Assembly: GCA_023666265.1 (NCBI GenBank)
Contig: JAMPCH010000012.1
Span: 1 to 55,580 of the forward strand
Length of the DNA stretch: 55,580 nt
Direction: 5' to 3'
From: Roseburia sp.
Lineage (GTDB): Bacteria > Bacillota > Clostridia > Oscillospirales > Ruminococcaceae
Shown in pieces: positions 40,591 through 55,425 of the stretch (the first letter of the stretch is position 1; every line of letters starts with the position of its first letter). The position numbers and the translations under genes are program-made. Under the pieces are notes generated by a model. That model was not told where the DNA came from, searched no databases, and saw nothing but the letters and a program-made list of their open reading frames with translations.

Positions 40591-41319
40591 TCAAAACACG
40601 CCCTCTCTGTAATTGATCCCCGCCTTTCGCGCCTGTTCGTGCTGGAGGCTACGTGGGATATGATAGACCCGCCCGTCCTTCCGAAAGAGCGCGCCCGTCT
40701 GTTGAAAGAAAAAGGGAACTTCGGCGGCGATACATTGCTCCCGAACGGAAAGTATCCACCCGTAGTCACAAAGCCGCGCGTTTTCGCCCGATTCGCCCGC
40801 ACAGGTCACCTCGCGGATCTGTCCGCTCGCGAGCGGCGCGGAAACATCGATCGCCTCGAGCATCGGCGAAAGCACGAGCATTTTATAACGGATTGGCATT
40901 TCGAGGAGAAGGGGCGCGCGGCGGTTGACCGCCTCCTGATCCTCACAGGAGAGACAAAGCGCCACATTTTCATATCCCTCGCCCCAGTCGTCGGGGAGCG
41001 CGTTATAAAACCGCTCGATCCGCTTTGTAAAAAGGACGAAGGTCAGCTCCGGGCGGCTGTGGATCATTCCCCAAGTCTCGCCGCGCCAGCCGTCCGCCTC
41101 CTCGATAAAGAAATCGGAGGTCATACAGGTATAGACGGGTTCGCCCCCGCCGAGCCGATAGCTCCCGTCCCGCTTTCGCTCGATCGGGAGGGAAAACGTC
41201 GCGTTCTTCCCGATCAAGTTACTGTCCCGCCCGTATTGCGCGTCGCGGCGAAACATATAACAATTTTTACAGCCCGTACTGTATTTGTGACAGCCGTGCC
41301 ACGGATTCCAGATCGCCAT
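40591..41319 (-). CDS. DUF5131 (phage Gp37/Gp68-like) three-Cys-motif protein
   Basis: The 242-residue protein opens MAIWNPWHGCHKYSTGCKNC, giving Cys at residues 10, 17 and 20 (C-x6-C-x2-C). That is the hallmark of the DUF5131/Gp37-Gp68 'three-Cys' family. The motif resembles the iron-sulfur site of radical-SAM enzymes, but the chemistry of the family is not established. Later motifs FVLFTKRIERFYNALP and VTCAGESGENARLCDYGWI also fit. It lies 24 bases after the nucleotidyltransferase gene with its own AAGGAG, so it is the last gene of the HEPN-PqqD-ABC operon. Confidence 0.85.
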   Translation of the reverse strand: MAIWNPWHGCHKYSTGCKNCYMFRRDAQYGRDSNLIGKNATFSLPIERKRDGSYRLGGGEPVYTCMTSDFFIEEADGWRGETWGMIHSRPELTFVLFTKRIERFYNALPDDWGEGYENVALCLSCEDQEAVNRRAPLLLEMPIRYKMLVLSPMLEAIDVSAPLASGQIREVTCAGESGENARLCDYGWILSVREQCIAAEVPFFFQQTGALFRKDGRVYHIPRSLQHEQARKAGINYREGVF

Positions 41320-41343
41320 ACGCCGCGCTCCTTTTCGTTCCCG

Positions 41344-42441
41344 CTATTTCGCTTTTAGGAATGTTTTCAGCTTTTCGAGATTTTCCTTCGGGAAGCGAAA
41401 CGGTCTCGTACAGATACGCGCGACCCAACAGAAGGGAAGGAGAACGGGCGCTTTATTTAAAACGGGGAAGTAATTTTTCATCATCTCGAGCGGCGGGAAG
41501 ATCAGGTATCTTAAATACGCCGCCTTACCGCCGTGTTTGATCCGATACTCCGTCCCGTTCATATACGAGCCGTAAGTCCCGCTCGATAAGACGAATTTCT
41601 CCATTTCGGCGAGCGAGCCGTCGTCCTCCGCCCCCGCGAACCAAAGCCGCGAAAGCCGCATACAGTCCTCCGCGAGACCCCGGATACGCGGCTCGCGAAA
41701 CAGCTCGAGCGCCTTCGCGGCGATCTCGGGCTTCCTTTTTTCATAAATATAAAAATCCATGAAAGAGCGGATCCCCGTCCCCGAATTTTCATAGTGCTTC
41801 ATGGCGTGAGCGAGGATATAGGCGAAAAAATAATCGTCGCGAAAGCGCTTCTCCGCGCCCGCGCCCTCGACCGTATAGCCCCACGGCGCGTCAAAAAGCC
41901 GCTGATATTCCTCGCTGAAGCCGCTCAGCATAAGCGAATAATGAAGCTCAACATTCATAACGGGGTCTTTATAATACGTATCCTCGACGTTATCCGAGTC
42001 CTCGCGGCGATACCCGAGCGAAAGCATGATCTCCCCGGCGACCTTACGTTTCTCCTCGTCGATAAGGATATCAAGGTCGGTCATAAGGCGAAGGTCGCTT
42101 TGGGGGTACTCCTGCTTTAAAAGAAGCCCCTTTAGCGGGACATATCGGATACCCGCCGCCGCGAAAGCTTCGCCGATCGCGGAAAATTCCTCCCGCTGAA
42201 TGAGATCCTTTACGATCGCGCGGTCGCGAACCTCGCTCCACCGCTTCATCAGTCCCGCCTCGGGCGGTTTTTTCAGCCGCTCGACCGCGTAAAAAGCGGT
42301 ATTCGCCACGTCGTGAAACTCCGCGAGGCGAAAGACCGTCTCGAGATCGACCCCCTCGGGCGCTTCCTCGGGCGTTTCGCCGTTTAGCGCCGCGCGAAGG
42401 AGCGAAAGGAGGTACGCTTCGTTCGTCCTGTCATTCTTCAT
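41344..42441 (-). CDS. NTP_transf_5 family nucleotidyltransferase (PadeN-like)
   Basis: The 365-residue protein has the diagnostic stretch GIRYVPLKGLLLKQEYPQ (about residues 93-110) followed by LRLMTDLDILIDEEKR, whose acidic pair should bind metal and nucleotide. It belongs to the PF14907-type family found in lasso-peptide clusters of Firmicutes (PadeN in paeninodin), where it is thought to modify the peptide. The precise reaction is unknown. Its ATG overlaps the end of the ABC gene by 11 bases, so translation is coupled. Confidence 0.88.
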   Translation of the reverse strand: MKNDRTNEAYLLSLLRAALNGETPEEAPEGVDLETVFRLAEFHDVANTAFYAVERLKKPPEAGLMKRWSEVRDRAIVKDLIQREEFSAIGEAFAAAGIRYVPLKGLLLKQEYPQSDLRLMTDLDILIDEEKRKVAGEIMLSLGYRREDSDNVEDTYYKDPVMNVELHYSLMLSGFSEEYQRLFDAPWGYTVEGAGAEKRFRDDYFFAYILAHAMKHYENSGTGIRSFMDFYIYEKRKPEIAAKALELFREPRIRGLAEDCMRLSRLWFAGAEDDGSLAEMEKFVLSSGTYGSYMNGTEYRIKHGGKAAYLRYLIFPPLEMMKNYFPVLNKAPVLLPFCWVARICTRPFRFPKENLEKLKTFLKAK

Positions 42442-44080
42442 AGATTTCCCCGTCCTTTATTTTAAAATGCCTTGTACAAATTTTTAAAGCGGCGGGTCTG
42501 TGTGTGACCGCGATAAGGGTACGGTCGCGAAATCCGCCGATATTCCCGATGAGCCGCGCCTCGGTCTCCTCGTCGAGGGCGCTCGTCGCCTCGTCGAGGA
42601 GGAGGATCGGCGCGCCGCTTAGGATCGCGCGGGCGACGGCGATCCGCTGAGCCTGTCCCTCGGAGATCCCGAAGCCGTTCTCGCCGATCCGCGTCTCAAA
42701 GCCGTCGGGGAGGCTCTCGATAAACTCGAGGGCGCATGCCGCCGCCGCCGCCTCGCGAACCTCGCCCGGGGTCGCGCCTTCCCTTAAAAAAGAAATATTA
42801 TCGGCGATCGTCCCCGAGAAGAGACACCCCCCTTGGGGAACATAGGCGAAAAGCCCGCGCGTCTCCTTCCCGGCGCGAAACACCTCATCGTCCGCCGCGT
42901 AAAATCGAACCGCCCCGCCCGTCGGTCGATACGCCCCGAGTAGGAGGAGAAAGAGCGTCGTTTTCCCGCCGCCCGAGATCCCCGTGATCGAGACGGACTC
43001 GCCGCGCCGTATCGCGAAGTCGGCGCTCGTGATGACCCGATTTTCCCCATAGGAAAAGGTCAAGCCCTCGACCGCGAGCCGCGCGAACCGCTCGGGCGGG
43101 AGCGTTTTATCCGCCTTCGGCTCGTCGGCTAGCTCCTCCAGTTCGATCAGCCGTTCCGCCGAGGCGATCGTCCCGTAATAGCGGGGGAGGAGGGAGGAAA
43201 GCCCCGCGAACGGGGACTGGATCTGATTGACGAGCTGTAACACGGCGGTAAGCGTCCCATAGCTCATCGTCCCGTCGAGGATACCAAAAGCCCCTCGGAT
43301 CATCGCGTAAAGATAGCCCGCCTGAAACACCAGTCCAAAGCCCGCGTTCGCCGCGATCGAGACGCTCCGCCGCTTTAAGCGCGAGCGATAATGAGCCTCT
43401 TGATTTTCGCGGTTGAGACGGAGCATTTTTTCCTCCGAGCCAAAGACCTTCACCGTTAAAAGCCCCTCGATCGTCTCCTGTAAAAACGAGCGGACGCGCC
43501 CCTCGCGCTCTTGTACCTCTTTATGTAGGCGCTTGATCCGTCCGCGAAAGAGCCGCGCCGTCAAAAAGAGAAAAAGCCCCGCCGCGAGGAAGAGCGCCGC
43601 GAAGCTCCCGTCGAGCGCGATCATCGCGGCGGCGGCGCAAACGAGCCGCGTCACGAGGCTCACGAGCGCGGGGAGAAGCCCCGTCACCCCGTCCGCCACG
43701 ACCGAAATATCGGAGAAGAGCCGATTTAAAAGCTCGCCGCTGTGATAGAGCGAGACGCGCTCATACTCCTTCCTTAAAAGAGAGGAAAAAATTTTTTCTC
43801 TTAATTTAATCTCGTACCGCGCGCGGGTGCTTTCGTCGATCCCGTTACAAAAAAGGCGGAGGAGGAATTGTAACGCGACGATCCCCGCGAGCCACGCGCC
43901 CGACCCGATCAGCCCCGCGCGGTCGCCCGCGACGGCGCAGTCAATCACCGCGCGACAGAGTAGGGCGAAGCCCACGCCGCTCACCGAAAAGACCGCGTTC
44001 CCGACGACGAGCGCCGCGATCCCGAGCCTTAGCCCCCTCGTCCCGCTAAAGAGCCACGCGAGCGGCTTTTGGCGGCTCAA
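42431..44080 (-). CDS. ABC transporter, fused permease and ATPase (peptide-export type)
   Basis: The 549-residue half-transporter has six membrane segments (about residues 15-300) and one ATPase: Walker A GISGGGKTTLFLLLLGAY, Walker B ILLLDEATSALDE, H-loop AVTHRP. The ABC signature reads GISEGQAQRIAVARA, a variant of LSGGQ. No N-terminal C39 leader peptidase is present, so any leader would be cut by another enzyme. The start is TTG at 44080, overlapping the pqqD stop in the sequence GATTGA. Neighbours suggest it exports the small peptide encoded at 46893-47063. Confidence 0.92.
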   Translation of the reverse strand: MSRQKPLAWLFSGTRGLRLGIAALVVGNAVFSVSGVGFALLCRAVIDCAVAGDRAGLIGSGAWLAGIVALQFLLRLFCNGIDESTRARYEIKLREKIFSSLLRKEYERVSLYHSGELLNRLFSDISVVADGVTGLLPALVSLVTRLVCAAAAMIALDGSFAALFLAAGLFLFLTARLFRGRIKRLHKEVQEREGRVRSFLQETIEGLLTVKVFGSEEKMLRLNRENQEAHYRSRLKRRSVSIAANAGFGLVFQAGYLYAMIRGAFGILDGTMSYGTLTAVLQLVNQIQSPFAGLSSLLPRYYGTIASAERLIELEELADEPKADKTLPPERFARLAVEGLTFSYGENRVITSADFAIRRGESVSITGISGGGKTTLFLLLLGAYRPTGGAVRFYAADDEVFRAGKETRGLFAYVPQGGCLFSGTIADNISFLREGATPGEVREAAAAACALEFIESLPDGFETRIGENGFGISEGQAQRIAVARAILSGAPILLLDEATSALDEETEARLIGNIGGFRDRTLIAVTHRPAALKICTRHFKIKDGEIYEE

Positions 44081-44340
44081 TCGAGTAAGCCCGCGCCGCT
44101 AAGCTCGGCGACGAAGGCGTTCACGTCCCGCGCCGCGTCCTCGTCCCCGACCTCATATTCGCGGGTGAGCGCCTCGACGAGCGCCTCTTTGGTCGTGTCG
44201 GTCTTTAGCTTTTCCCAAAGAAATCGCCCCGTCTCGTTGAGGCGGATAATGCCGTTAAATTCCTTCGCCGCCTTACCCGCCGCGAATACGATGTTCTGTT
44301 CCCCGACCGAGCGGAGTAAAAAGCCTTTTTTGATCTTCAT
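44077..44340 (-). CDS. PqqD-family RiPP recognition element
   Basis: The 87-residue protein has the PqqD winged-helix pattern: LLRSVGEQNIVFAAG at the start, then FNGIIRLNETGRFLWEKL, and a last helix region DVNAFVAELSGAGLLD. PqqD-like domains grip the leader of ribosomally made peptides and present them to tailoring enzymes. In lasso systems the stand-alone form is called B1. It overlaps the HEPN gene by four bases (ATGA) and the ABC gene by four, so the three are translated together. Confidence 0.93.
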   Translation of the reverse strand: MKIKKGFLLRSVGEQNIVFAAGKAAKEFNGIIRLNETGRFLWEKLKTDTTKEALVEALTREYEVGDEDAARDVNAFVAELSGAGLLD

Positions 44341-44780
44341 GCCGTCGTTTCCTTTTCGTGATTTTGATAAATGGGGGTGAGATAGCTTTCGATTTGGTGA
44401 AGGACTGCTTCCGCGTTGGCGATCTGCTCCTCGGCTTCCTCGGCGGAGACATAATAAAAATTCTTAAAAAGCGCGTCGCTCGATACCTTGTACGCACGTC
44501 TGATCTTTGGGCTCAACTCGCCGTTAAATTTCCCCCTGTTGATATAGTTTCGCTCAAAGCGATAGATAACGTTCGGGTGTCGCCGCGAGCGAAAGCCGTC
44601 TAAGACCATGACCGCGCTCATCGCGTGATAGATCGCGAAATAAGCGCGATCGACCGAGCAGTTATAACCGCTTGTACGACCGTAGCTCAACTTCGCCGTT
44701 TCGAGATCGTCCTTTGCGCTATCCAACATATATTTGGACTTCTTTTTTAAAATCCCCTCCGAATAGTCGGTCACTCTCAT
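44337..44780 (-). CDS. HEPN-domain protein
   Basis: I start this gene at 44780 (MRVTDYSEGILKKKSKYMLDS); it gives 147 residues. The helical bundle includes DDLETAKLSYGRTSGYNCSVDRAYFAIYHAMSAVMVLDGF, the classic HEPN pattern, with R-x6-H in RAYFAIYH and HPN further on. HEPN proteins are often RNases or partners of MNT nucleotidyltransferases in toxin-antitoxin and defence systems. Here it is the first gene of an export/maturation operon, with a TTGACT-N17-TATAAT promoter. Its partner may be the NTP_transf_5 protein, though that family differs from MNT. Confidence 0.88.
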   Translation of the reverse strand: MRVTDYSEGILKKKSKYMLDSAKDDLETAKLSYGRTSGYNCSVDRAYFAIYHAMSAVMVLDGFRSRRHPNVIYRFERNYINRGKFNGELSPKIRRAYKVSSDALFKNFYYVSAEEAEEQIANAEAVLHQIESYLTPIYQNHEKETTA

Positions 44781-44816
44781 AAAGTTCCCGCCCTCCCTTA
44801 CTTTAACTTTAACTAT

Positions 44817-44845
44817 ATTATAGTATAATCCCCCCAAAAAGTCAA
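44817..44845 (-). promoter_or_regulatory. Promoter of the HEPN-PqqD-ABC operon
   Basis: Minus strand TTGACT (44845-44840), 17 bases, TATAAT (44822-44817). It is 36 bases upstream of the HEPN start and divergent from the promoter at 44945-44973. Confidence 0.88.
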
Positions 44846-44876
44846 ACCCTTTCGTCCTATTTGTGCAAAGGTCACA

Positions 44877-44893
44877 TTTTTTTTTTTTTTTTT
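44877..44893. repeat. 17-base T homopolymer between divergent promoters, flanked by tttgtgcaa repeats
   Basis: A run of 17 T lies between the two divergent promoters. TTTGTGCAA occurs on both sides (about 44860-44868 and 44891-44899). Such tracts can slip during replication. Confidence 0.7.
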
Positions 44894-44944
44894 GTGCAAT
44901 TTTTCGGCGAAAACAGAGAATTTTGTTAAAAATGTATATTTCGG

Positions 44945-44973
44945 TTGACTTTGGTTGGATTTTATTATACAAT
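44945..44973 (+). promoter_or_regulatory. Promoter of the Big_2 protein / small peptide unit
   Basis: TTGACT (44945-44950), 17 bases, TACAAT (44968-44973), 38 bases upstream of the ATG at 45012, which has an AAAGGAGG site. Confidence 0.85.
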
Positions 44974-45011
44974 AATGATATACAAATTTAACCTTTAAAG
45001 GAGGAAATTCT

Positions 45012-46871
45012 ATGAAGTTTAAAAAGATATTGTCGGGCTTTTTAGCCGCGGCAATGGCGGTCACCTCTATGGTGACGGCGAGTGCGTTGGATGCTGAAAG
45101 CAAGACGACGACTCTTTATAAATTCGATGATAGTCAGATTGGCATCATTGATGCGGTAGAGTTTGATGCTTCTTCTGCGACCAGTAGTATTTCGATAAAT
45201 GTAACTGGTGAACAAACAGATGATGTTACACCTGATTCTGGCGCGGGCATTCAATTTCAGGAGTGTGCAAGTTGGAAATGTTGGGGTTGGGTGAATTTCG
45301 GTGATACCCTTACTGTTGACTCAACGAATGATAATTGGTCTAATCTAGTTTCTTCAGGCGGAAAAGTGCTTATAAGCAAAATCAAGGTAGAAAAGGTAAC
45401 TCTGACTATTGATAATGGTACAGCAACAACAATCTATGATAGTTCTACGGCGTCTAAAGGAATGGAATTTGCCGCAAGTGGTACAAATTATACTATTTCG
45501 GCAACTACTTTAGCGTCTGCTGGTGTTACGTCTGCTAACATTGCGGATGGTAAATTAATTGTGACGATTACGAAAGTGAATGAAACAAACTCTAGTCGTG
45601 ATTTAGCCGTTTTAGCAACTTCAAGTGATTGGGAGAATCAATTTACATGGCATGGTGCGTCTGACTTAGTTGTTGGTAGTTTAGAATTACCTTTAACAGG
45701 TAAGTCGGGAGACACGGATTTGGGTGCTACTCCTTTAACAACGGGTTTGCTGTTACATGCAAAAGACATTGTTGTGTCTCAGATTGATATTGTGGTTCCT
45801 GTGGTTGACGCTATTACCCACACCGTAACCATTGCCAATACGATCGCCAACGGTACTGTAACCACCGACAAAGCCACCGCCGCGAAGGACGAAAAGGTAA
45901 CTCTTACCGTTACTCCCGCGACGGGCTATGAACTCGATACTTTGACCGTAAAGGAAAAGACCTCGGGCGCGGCTGTGACCGTTGCGGCGGATAATACCTT
46001 TACGATGCCCGACGACGACGTGACCGTGACCGCGACCTTTGTAAAGGCGGAAGTACCGCTCACCGGGATCACGCTCGATAAGACGACCGCGAATATTGTT
46101 GTCGGAGCTACGACGACCCTCACCGCGACGAAAGCTCCCGCCGATACGACCGATGATACCGCGATCACTTGGACGACCTCCGACGCGACCGTGGCGACCG
46201 TAGCGGGCGGCGTTGTTACCGGCGTTAAGGCGGGTACGGCGACGATCACCGCGACTTGCGGCGAAAAGACCGCGACCTGTGCCGTTACCGTAAAGACGGA
46301 CGCTACGCCCTGCACGGCTGTGACCTTAAATAAGGAGACGGCGGAAGTAAAGAAGGGCGAGACCGTCACCTTAACGGCGACCGTTACCCCGACCGATACG
46401 ACCGACGAGCTTACTTGGACGACCTCCGACGCGACCGTCGCGACCGTCGCGAACGGTGTTATTACCGGCGTTGGACGCGGTACGGCGACGATCACCGCGA
46501 AGTGCGGCGATAAGACCGCGACTTGTGCGGTATCCGTGACCGAGGATAAGGTAAAGACCGAAGCTCTTGTAGCCGTAGGCGGTTCGACGTCCTATGATAC
46601 GTTATCGTCGGACGGGAAGTTAAAGACGATCGACGTGGTTTACGCGATCTCCGAAGCCGATCTCGCGTCGAAGGGCTACACCGTAACGATCACGAACGAA
46701 AAGAACAAGAAGAGTATCACCAAGGACATCACGACCGCTTATACAAAGGTGACCGTTCCGTCCACCGAGAAGCTCGGGAACGATACTTATACCGGCTATT
46801 ACCTCGTGGTTCGCGTGATCAACGTTCCGGCGGACGTAACGCTCGCGTACTTGTTCGCGCCGATCGCTTAA
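45012..46871 (+). CDS. Secreted protein with bacterial Ig-like (Big_2) domains
   Basis: The 619-residue product has a signal peptide (FKKILSGFLAAAMAVTSMVTASA, cleavage near residue 25). An unrecognised domain follows (about 26-265), then a beta-rich repeat of the HTVTIANTIANGTVTTDKATA type (about 269-345). Two Big_2 domains come next (about 348-430 and 436-515), each with WTTSDATVATV and GTATITA...CGEKTATCAVTV. A final ~100-residue beta domain closes the chain. It is probably exported and surface- or matrix-associated; no LPXTG or dockerin is seen. Bases 45110-45810 are clearly AT-richer than the rest, which suggests a mosaic gene. The 56-residue peptide gene follows after 21 bases. Confidence 0.88.
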   Translation: MKFKKILSGFLAAAMAVTSMVTASALDAESKTTTLYKFDDSQIGIIDAVEFDASSATSSISINVTGEQTDDVTPDSGAGIQFQECASWKCWGWVNFGDTLTVDSTNDNWSNLVSSGGKVLISKIKVEKVTLTIDNGTATTIYDSSTASKGMEFAASGTNYTISATTLASAGVTSANIADGKLIVTITKVNETNSSRDLAVLATSSDWENQFTWHGASDLVVGSLELPLTGKSGDTDLGATPLTTGLLLHAKDIVVSQIDIVVPVVDAITHTVTIANTIANGTVTTDKATAAKDEKVTLTVTPATGYELDTLTVKEKTSGAAVTVAADNTFTMPDDDVTVTATFVKAEVPLTGITLDKTTANIVVGATTTLTATKAPADTTDDTAITWTTSDATVATVAGGVVTGVKAGTATITATCGEKTATCAVTVKTDATPCTAVTLNKETAEVKKGETVTLTATVTPTDTTDELTWTTSDATVATVANGVITGVGRGTATITAKCGDKTATCAVSVTEDKVKTEALVAVGGSTSYDTLSSDGKLKTIDVVYAISEADLASKGYTVTITNEKNKKSITKDITTAYTKVTVPSTEKLGNDTYTGYYLVVRVINVPADVTLAYLFAPIA

Positions 46872-46892
46872 AGGAAGGAGAGATTTTAAACA

Positions 46893-47063
46893 ATGAAAAA
46901 GGATTATAAAAAGCCCGAAATGCTCGTGTCGCTCTTTGATACAAAGGACGTTATCACCGCGAGTAAGCAGATGACCAAGAACGAAGACCCGATGATGATC
47001 GGCGGCGCCGGTTCAGCCGGTAACCCCGACACGATCAACTTTATCGGCTCGGGATTAGAGTAA
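46893..47063 (+). CDS. 56-residue peptide with YxxP leader motif, candidate RiPP precursor
   Basis: An AAGGAAGGAGAG site precedes this ATG. The peptide begins MKKDYKKPEMLVSLFDTKDV and continues ITASKQMTKNEDPMM. It ends with a Gly-rich tail, IGGAGSAGNPDTINFIGSGLE without the last residue counted as essential. Y-K-K-P-E-M followed by hydrophobics and Phe closely resembles the Y-x2-P-x-L...F leader motif that stand-alone PqqD-like proteins bind in lasso-peptide systems. A pqqD, an exporter and a PadeN-like gene diverge upstream. No cysteine is present. Core and modification are unknown; it could instead be an unmodified exported peptide. Confidence 0.75.
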   Translation: MKKDYKKPEMLVSLFDTKDVITASKQMTKNEDPMMIGGAGSAGNPDTINFIGSGLE

Positions 47064-53292: not shown

Positions 53293-53331
53293 CTGATTTT
53301 TCCCCGGGTCGCTCGGGGGAGGGAAGGAGTG

Positions 53332-55425
53332 ATGACCGTCTTGACGGATTTTTTTAAGAGAAATACGATCCCGATGCTCCTGTTTGTGTCGCTATGTAGC
53401 TCGGTCGTTTATATTTACGCCTCTTCCGATTTTTCGGTCGTCGCTTTATTTACCGTTGTGAGCGCGGTATACGCGACCTTACTTTTCGCCCTGTACGAAA
53501 AGCTGAAGGCGCTCGGGAAAACGGCGATCACGACGATCGCGGTCGCGGCGCTGATGATCTTATCGGTCGTGGCGGGAAGCCGCTTTTTTGAGACCGACTG
53601 GGCTCAGACGACCGAGTGGGTCTTAGAGCCTCAGAATATGCGACAGATCTACGCGGGGAATATCGCGGCGCTCCTCACGATCGGCGGCTTTATCCTCGGG
53701 AGCGCGCTCTATTATTTTACGTCGATCCGTTATCGGGCGGTCTTTGTCTTTTTGATCTGTATGTGCCCTTTCTCGCTCTTCGCTAAGACCTTTACCGAGA
53801 TCCCCGTGATCTATATTATCCTGATCGCGACGCTGTTTTTTATTCTTATGATCTTAAAGGCGAGCGGGGAATCCGCCTTTTTGGGGACAAAAAGCTATCT
53901 CGCCTTTGGGGCTTTTGTCGCGGCGGTCGTTTCGGCGGCGGCTTTTTTACCGAAACTCGAAAGTGCGCCGTACCGTGAGGATTTCGACGAGCTGATCACG
54001 GGGATAAGGATCGGCGGCGCGAGCGGAATGGATTTTAACGGTTTTTCGGATTCCTCCTCTTATTCCGGGTCGGACGACGACGAAACGGTTTTTTTCACGA
54101 TCTACGGCGATAACCCGATCCATATGAAGCGTCAATGCTTTAACCTTTATCGGCGTGAAACGGATCAATGGGAATATTACGGCGAATCCGACACCGGCTA
54201 TAACAATTTCGACGAATACATCAATTGGGAAGATCCCGCCGCCCTCTCGGCGGAGGTCGGGATCGAGACGGAGTCGGAGCTAAAGGGCGCTTGGATCCGC
54301 TCCGAGCGGGGGAAGCTCCGCGCCCTGTACACGACGGAGAATATGACGGTGATCGAGGTAGCGGACAGCTCGCCGCGCGAGCTTTATCGAACGCCGATGG
54401 ACGAATATTTTATCTCGTCGGGCAGTAACGACTATCGGTATTATCGGATCGAATGGTCCGACGCCCCGTACAGCGAGGAATTTTCGGAAAGCTATACCGA
54501 CGAAGCCGCGCGGGAGAACGCCGAAAACGATCACGGAGCGGGCTATTATAAAGCCTATACGGAGATGAAGGCGCTTTACGCGTACCTCCTTCGCGAGGAT
54601 ACACGGCGCGAGGCGTATAAAAGCGACGCGGATCACCAAAGGGTAAGAGAGCTCGCCGAGACGCTGACCGAGGGGCTTTTGACGGATCATCAAAAGGCGA
54701 AGGCAATCGAAGCCTATCTTTTAGGTCCCGAATTTGTTTATGACAATAGCTTCGCGCCCGCCGACGGGAGCGTCGAGAACTTCCTTTTTCGGACGCGGCG
54801 CGGCGCATGCGCGGATTACGCGACGGCGATGACGCTCCTTTGTCGCGAGGTCGGTCTGTACAGTCGGTATGTGGAGGGCTTTTTAGTCCAAAAAAAATCG
54901 GAGCGGGGAAATTATTATGTGACCGCCGCCGATTCTCACGCATACGTCCAGGTATGGATCAACGGGTACGGCTGGACGGATTTTGATCCGACGAGTAACA
55001 ATATCGACGGCGGTTATGTGGACTATACCTTCGCGATCTTTGGGGCGGTCGTCCTACTGGCGGCGCTGTCCGTCGGGTTGACGCTCCTGATCCGACCGGC
55101 GGTACGCGAGCGAATGTTTTTGAGCCGCGCGAAAAAGCTGAGCGGTAGGGAACAGATCCTAACGCTGTACCCGAGGCTGAGCCGATTCCTTCATTTAAAG
55201 CTCGGACAAAAAAAGGCGATCTATACGCCGCGCGAGCTAAAGGAGCGGGCGGCGCTCGTCTATGGGGTCGATCTCGCCCCACTCGCGGACAATTTTGAGC
55301 GGGCGGCATACGGCGGGAAAGAGGCGGACGCGCTCGATTATCCCAGCCTATACGGCTCGGCGATCCGCGCGGTCAAGGCGGCGGAGAAAGAGCGGCGAAA
55401 AAAGCCGCGCCTTCCTAAAAAATAA
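53332..55425 (+). CDS. Transglutaminase-like membrane protein (TgpA type)
   Basis: The 697-residue protein has five or six N-terminal membrane segments (about residues 10-210) and an external domain with the transglutaminase triad: Cys in RRGACADYATAMTLLC, His in AADSHAYVQVW and Asp in WTDFDPT. A last membrane segment (about 564-586) and a cytoplasmic tail follow. This is the TgpA layout; the enzyme is expected to cleave or crosslink proteins outside the membrane. ATG 53332 is preceded by GGAAGGA; GTG 53329 is an alternative. It ends the operon. Confidence 0.93.
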   Translation: MTVLTDFFKRNTIPMLLFVSLCSSVVYIYASSDFSVVALFTVVSAVYATLLFALYEKLKALGKTAITTIAVAALMILSVVAGSRFFETDWAQTTEWVLEPQNMRQIYAGNIAALLTIGGFILGSALYYFTSIRYRAVFVFLICMCPFSLFAKTFTEIPVIYIILIATLFFILMILKASGESAFLGTKSYLAFGAFVAAVVSAAAFLPKLESAPYREDFDELITGIRIGGASGMDFNGFSDSSSYSGSDDDETVFFTIYGDNPIHMKRQCFNLYRRETDQWEYYGESDTGYNNFDEYINWEDPAALSAEVGIETESELKGAWIRSERGKLRALYTTENMTVIEVADSSPRELYRTPMDEYFISSGSNDYRYYRIEWSDAPYSEEFSESYTDEAARENAENDHGAGYYKAYTEMKALYAYLLREDTRREAYKSDADHQRVRELAETLTEGLLTDHQKAKAIEAYLLGPEFVYDNSFAPADGSVENFLFRTRRGACADYATAMTLLCREVGLYSRYVEGFLVQKKSERGNYYVTAADSHAYVQVWINGYGWTDFDPTSNNIDGGYVDYTFAIFGAVVLLAALSVGLTLLIRPAVRERMFLSRAKKLSGREQILTLYPRLSRFLHLKLGQKKAIYTPRELKERAALVYGVDLAPLADNFERAAYGGKEADALDYPSLYGSAIRAVKAAEKERRKKPRLPKK

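Follow-up and report, generated by a model that had tools for sequence, protein, structure and literature searches.

Which product is made by a run of minus-strand genes that joins a PqqD-like protein, an exporter and a nucleotidyltransferase, and that faces, on the opposite strand, a secreted protein followed by a 56-residue peptide? In the window (the whole analysed stretch of 55,580 nucleotides, lying on contig C3 of a 98-contig draft genome, hereafter G000) the original prediction had described five minus-strand and two plus-strand genes, and all seven were found in place, the first four minus-strand genes overlapping by 4 to 11 bases. We compared them with the RiPP pathway of the Linear Polyphosphorylated Peptides (LPP; Popov et al., May 2026, PMC13381572), whose core genes are given in its main text as LppB (RRE), LppK (HprK-like), LppS (SpI-like), LppD (MsbA-like) and LppN (NTP transferase), and whose clusters, as described there, lack a cyclase and include a YxxP precursor. 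The features are listed here by position (in what follows B stands for PqqD, D for the ABC exporter, N for NTP_transf_5, K for the kinase and S for the leader peptidase).

40591..41319, minus strand: DUF5131 protein (Pfam E = 6e-39), judged a bystander
41344..42441, minus strand: NTP_transf_5 protein, LppN-type nucleotidyltransferase (Pfam 6e-42)
42431..44080, minus strand: LppD-type MsbA-like ABC exporter (Pfam ABC_membrane and ABC_tran)
44077..44340, minus strand: PqqD protein, LppB-type discrete RiPP recognition element (Pfam PqqD, 4e-18)
44337..44780, minus strand: HEPN protein (Pfam HEPN, 5e-10 on the longest ORF), judged a neighbour outside the conserved system
44945..44973, plus strand: putative sigma-A-like promoter of the secreted protein/peptide operon (TTGACT, 17 bases, TACAAT), picked out by eye
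45012..46871, plus strand: large secreted Ig-like protein (signal-like N-terminus; Big_2, 5.9e-19, and Flg_new_2 domains)
46581..46868, plus strand: class A C-terminal domain of this secreted partner (profile A6, E <= 0.01)
46893..47063, plus strand: 56-aa LPP-type precursor peptide (leader profile 53 bits, E = 7.6e-14, the peptide being itself among the sequences of that profile)
46893-46943, plus strand: probable leader of the peptide, residues 1-17 (ends F-D-T; core from KDVITAS)

The overlaps amount to 4 (HEPN/PqqD), 4 (PqqD/ABC) and 11 bases (ABC/NTP_transf_5), a gap of 24 bases follows between NTP_transf_5 and DUF5131, and on the plus strand 21 bases separate the secreted protein from the peptide. 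For the HEPN gene the ATG at 44780 is, in our judgement, a more likely start than the TTG at 44972 that opens the longest ORF. At E <= 0.001 the genome has no PqqD match other than the one in the window.

Paeninodin-type lasso and LPP clusters share the RRE, the kinase, the NTP transferase and the exporter (main text of PMC13381572), whereas the window cluster differs from the lasso type by its want of a B2 peptidase or cyclase and by a leader with Tyr rather than Trp. As originally predicted, neither the transglutaminase-like B2 peptidase nor the macrolactam cyclase was present in the cluster (19 window proteins scanned with Pfam); a Transglut_core domain occurs 9 kb away, in a 698-aa protein (53329-55425) encoded behind a MoxR-like gene.

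Enzymes at two loci

Three LPP components have counterparts in the window: LppB in PqqD, LppD in the ABC exporter and LppN in the NTP_transf_5 protein. Among solved structures the best PDB match of the window PqqD was LppB (9x8z_B, E = 4.6e-5), with 6jx3 next (0.008), and, under a chain offset inferred by placing LppB L32-N33 on the LN pair of the window protein, LppB N33, Y60, E61, D70 and F74 fall on N35, Y62, E63, D72 and F76. In LppB, residues N33, D70 and F74 are reported to hold the leader Tyr and Pro (main text of PMC13381572); the window PqqD is likewise a discrete RRE, predicted to bind a YxxP leader. The exporter has NCBIfam MsbA_rel as its best match, yet below the cut-off of that model. 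An MsbA-like exporter and an NTP transferase, both LPP traits, occupy positions 41344-44080. Among the other fetched stretches the exporter shares a stretch with PqqD at L085, L086, L087, L090, L096, L098, L099, L100, L111 and L114, and NTP_transf_5 accompanies PqqD at 14 loci (L087, L088, L090, L091, L095, L096, L098, L099, L100, L101, L111, L113, L114 and L115).

GTDB contigs searched by way of PqqD yielded 17 loci, several of which carried a protein of about 240 aa before PqqD (a family with a P-loop visible in its alignment) and one of about 150 aa, weakly matching Peptidase_S24, after it. Profiles built from these neighbours (A3 for the kinase, A4 for the peptidase) found one copy each in G000, both on contig C55, in genes overlapping by 4 bases:

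G000:C55:31470-32174: HprK-like kinase K (profile A3, E = 1.5e-78)
G000:C55:32183-32626: putative SipW/archaeal-type leader peptidase S, 148 aa (profile A4)

The HprK-like identity of K rests on its motifs (the P-loop SGTGKST and NDDKP) together with weak profile matches: the HprK-related models TIGR04352, TIGR04355 and ScmC TIGR04249 are all matched far below their cut-offs, and K forms a separate subfamily (profile A3 reaches the solved HPr kinases at no better than E = 0.3). S resembles the archaeal-type signal peptidase I (SipW/TIGR02228) at E = 1.8e-7, below the family cut-off, and differs from that family in being short and in adjoining a kinase, profile A4 matching only the five K-bearing genomes of the genus sample. 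It keeps Ser26 and His65, 39 residues apart, as are S29 and H68 of LppS; at the position of LppS D93 it has, by eye, a Lys (no match could be made) and an invariant Asp upstream is kept. A kinase and a putative leader peptidase are thus present, apart from B-D-N, and the idea that the system lacks its leader protease was dropped.

In G000, then, B-D-N lie on C3, K-S on C55 and six YxxP peptides across five contigs, unlike the LPP clusters, in which genes and precursor go together; we stress that the separation of B-D-N from K-S is read from the 98-contig draft. Two relatives are split as well (G151, with K on C187 and B-S-D-N on C176; G187, with K on C156 and B-S-N on its own contig C3), and compact clusters that include the precursor occur in relatives (L095, L096, L098 and L099). 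The dispersal is not only a draft artefact, for two genomes assembled into one and two contigs each carry peptide and kinase a long way apart on a single contig (G117, peptide at 2,003,958 and kinase at 368,104; G113, 2,175,065 and 1,272,721).

Precursor peptides and their leader

The window peptide had been taken for the operon's own substrate; it is one of six YxxP peptides encoded in G000, the other five being on other contigs. Searched alone, it found four relatives besides itself, and a profile of such peptides matched 4,734 protein clusters (E <= 0.01), among which the 120 matches listed carried neither precomputed Pfam domains nor functional names. Recurrence of the leader at five further G000 loci and in these cluster matches shows that the peptide is no chance ORF. 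YxxP peptides also stand beside PqqD in relatives, as had been expected, either directly (L090, L113 and L114) or in the same cluster (L095, L096, L098 and L099).

Over 35 distinct peptides (at least 24 bits, from the fetched loci, identical sequences counted once and a weaker one at L011 dropped) the leader keeps Tyr in 33, Pro in 28, Phe in 31, Asp/Glu in 30 and Thr/Ser/Ala/Cys in 29, and the core start keeps Asp in 32, Ile in 31 and Ser in 31. The leader spacing is P-x6-F-[DE]-[TSAC], as against the P-x9-F-x-[T/A] reported for LPP (main text of PMC13381572). With a strict pattern that allowed spacings of 4-9, 104 of the 119 homologues listed matched and all 104 had x6, a listing that favours x6 because the profile has it. 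Behind the leader the core opens with DVIT[TA]S, its Ser near-invariant. According to the same main text, LppA is cut after F-E-T and phosphorylated at S3, and a mark of LPP cores is several phosphates on a single Ser; the F-x-[T/A] ahead of the predicted cut equals the LppA motif. By this likeness, cleavage would follow F-[DE]-[TSAC] and the Ser in DVIT[TA]S would carry the phosphate, at +7 rather than at the +3 of LppA.

Co-occurrence of kinase, peptidase and leader

Among 60 genomes of the genus, K was found in five (G000, G151, G179, G183 and G187), and S and the leader (E <= 1e-4) in exactly those five (Fisher 1.8e-7; the K and S profiles had drawn on G151 and G179, the leader profile on these two and on G000). 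From G183 and G187 none of the three profiles took a sequence, and on these two alone the Fisher value is 6e-4. Weaker leader matches occurred in two K-negative genomes (G202, 0.005; G190, 0.024). PqqD (PF05402) was matched in 8/60 genomes, including four of the five K-bearing ones; the search did not find it in G183, where K sits at a contig edge (start at base 350) and PqqD may lie beyond it.

In 148 genomes of the family PqqD was matched in 51, K in 25 and the leader (E <= 1e-4) in 14, all 14 having both K and PqqD (Fisher for K 3e-13, six of the 14 having given sequences to the leader profile). The remaining eight all carried K (Fisher 2e-8; two leader-profile rows came from named records that are possibly among the family genomes). 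No K-negative family genome reached a leader match of 1e-4, five giving partial matches of 0.0165 to 0.0825. Eleven of the 25 K-bearing genomes had no leader match at 1e-4; five of these gave only partial K matches and six have a full or nearly full K, five of the six being under 90% complete.

Pairing with large secreted proteins

In G000 all six YxxP peptides are encoded directly behind a large secreted protein gene, and this sixfold recurrence suggests that the two work together. For the 35 peptides we counted as a pair any same-strand upstream ORF of 300 aa or more that was signal-like (by a crude hydrophobicity rule) or cut by the contig edge and had at most one later hydrophobic segment. 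This rule took in 25/35 peptides against 56/295 background genes (19%; binomial 2e-11, a value that treats paralogues and relatives as independent, which they are not), and at least one pair was present in 16 of 19 genomes. Gaps within pairs were mostly short, 20 of the 25 measuring -1 to 48 bases, with the remaining five at 80 to 210. Ten peptides fell outside the rule, those of L012 (secreted ORF downstream), L090 (two), L096_10632 (behind a short lipoprotein gene), L113, L114, L213, L215, L216 (preceded by a DNA-ligase-like ORF) and L217 (gene interrupted by N), four of them adjoining B. A further peptide of G187, outside the set of 35, follows an ORF that is cut by the contig edge and ends in a class-B domain.

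The partners end in recurring C-terminal domains. The class-A domain (profile A6, E <= 0.01) has six copies in G000 and one in G151, with none in the 58 other genus genomes, and 7/7 copies are followed immediately by a YxxP peptide (the profile was built with five of them). It appears that the core type follows the partner-domain type: behind class-A or class-A-like domains the cores are longer and carry GG in eight of nine cases and AG in the ninth (mostly paralogues, with two of the nine assignments weak: L210, 3e-5, and L214, 0.05), and behind nine class-B domains they are mostly short and acidic (L095 has GG); L217 (assignment at 0.006, 11-residue core) breaks the trend. The class-B domain, exemplified at L099:3654-5843 (minus strand), has a recurring C-terminal end of about LvKALYxYxxAAxxY and is found in partners from several genera; the L099 partner protein itself had no Pfam match.

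Two of the six secreted-protein/peptide operons of G000 have 5' leaders (L120:6580-6808, plus strand, and L122:10408-10620, minus strand) in which a long hairpin is followed by a terminator-like one (z = -9.1 and -9.9, respectively). No Rfam family was matched there at the gathering threshold, and attenuator or riboswitch-like control is possible.

A proposed split LPP-type system and its alternatives

We read these data as a split LPP-type system in Clostridia, with B-D-N in the window and K-S on C55, that serves dispersed pairs of secreted protein and phosphopeptide, and we give this reading a probability of roughly 0.78. The genes, their co-occurrence, the pairing and the motif were observed here, and the chemistry is borrowed from the LPP paper by analogy: B would bind the Y-x-x-P leader, K would phosphorylate the core (the near-invariant Ser in DVIT[TA]S being the likeliest site), S would cut after F-[DE]-[T/S/A/C], D would export the core, and N may add a further group in a step that we leave unspecified. 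Since every G000 precursor gene comes second after one for a large secreted protein, the phosphopeptide, once exported, probably serves that surface protein as its dedicated companion. More speculatively, the clostridial system could be a genome-wide service in which one enzyme set handles many dispersed peptides, each co-produced with a large surface protein of its own, each phosphopeptide being a matched ligand, cross-linker or anchor for the C-terminal domain of its partner; this extension we regard as less likely than not.

The original prediction had placed the novelty elsewhere, in a self-contained five-gene operon with a new maturation chemistry, to which an iron-sulfur enzyme (DUF5131) and a HEPN protein had been added. 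Its RiPP-type, non-lasso-looking core stands, and the new chemistry does not, since PMC13381572 had already reported a pathway of this kind. In favour of the operon model, the gene overlaps suggest cotranscription, and DUF5131 has three N-terminal Cys and weakly resembles a radical-SAM mobile-pair model (E = 0.018, well short of its cut-off); the iron-sulfur function as such gained no support. Against membership, DUF5131 was matched in 39/60 genus genomes, of which 35 have no K, and gave no match in the K-bearing G179, whereas K, S and the leader keep to five; in G151 its copy lies on C44, away from the LPP genes. In 40 other fetched stretches, 25 of them with PqqD- or kinase-like genes, no label of DUF5131 or of HEPN appeared (the HEPN profile was built from a single sequence, and several of the stretches are short contigs). 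Both proteins look like bystanders and were rejected as parts of the system, and, with a kinase and peptidase of LPP kind elsewhere in G000, the self-contained operon is very improbable. More improbable still is that the HEPN and NTP_transf_5 genes, which share an operon-like run, form a unit like HEPN-MNT (a pairing of toxin-antitoxin kind) in which PqqD and the exporter were included by chance; we rejected this, given the 14 loci with NTP_transf_5 and PqqD but no HEPN label and the absence of PADLOC matches for HEPN or NTP_transf_5 at E <= 0.01. The DUF5131 protein (40591-41319) for its part matches the PADLOC candidate-defence models PDC-M41B and PDC-M30B at E of about 3e-26.

The two other alternatives concern the peptide. 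It might be an antimicrobial or signalling RiPP of LPP type, its secreted neighbours being unrelated passengers: LPP precursors lie inside clusters near capsule loci, the main text of PMC13381572 names no secreted partner for them (the word 'secreted' occurs there 0 times), and 10/35 of our peptides fall outside the pairing rule. We consider this unlikely in view of the pairs spread over most genomes, the one-to-one match of class-A domains and peptides, and the mostly short gaps within pairs. Slightly less probable still is an unprocessed small protein that helps the large protein preceding it to be secreted, folded or regulated. Such a helper would account for the tight pairing and for cores that tend to follow the partner domain, but the leader matches an RRE-binding and cleavage motif and co-occurs with K and S in the same 5/60 genomes.

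Relation to known systems

The split system thus preferred resembles LPP in its discrete RRE, HprK-like kinase, putative SpI-like (SipW/archaeal) peptidase, MsbA-like exporter and NTP transferase, and in a YxxP leader with F-x-[T/A]-like residues ahead of the core. It differs in that the enzymes are spread over two loci with six dispersed precursors, the leader is P-x6-F and not P-x9-F, the core starts with xDVIT[TA]S, and each G000 precursor stands behind a large secreted protein. The x6 spacing, the DVIT[TA]S core start, the dispersed precursors and the pairing are new relative to the main text of PMC13381572. In the open-licence literature (subscription journals were mostly outside its scope) no description of the pairing was found, and the strings DVITTS and DVITAS were absent; we regard the pairing as a new observation, and its function as probably one of companionship.

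The biological role of LPP peptides is stated as unknown in the main text of PMC13381572. Pairing with defined secreted proteins offers a concrete partner in each genome and moves the question to cell-surface biology. The leader family is a large one, and mining bound to clusters would miss dispersed precursors (in the LPP paper, according to its main text, precursors were searched up to 5 kb from the cluster).

The same text calls the LPP family restricted to Bacillota; K-B-S genes of LPP kind occur at L020:9243-10707 and L024:9267-10710, in two MAGs titled Paludibacteraceae (binning errors are possible). G134 has five PqqD matches, and its kinase matches span only about positions 70-234 of the profile; one of its contig stretches (L085) carries two groups of PqqD, kinase and peptidase, one of them with an exporter, and may be a lasso or mixed locus.
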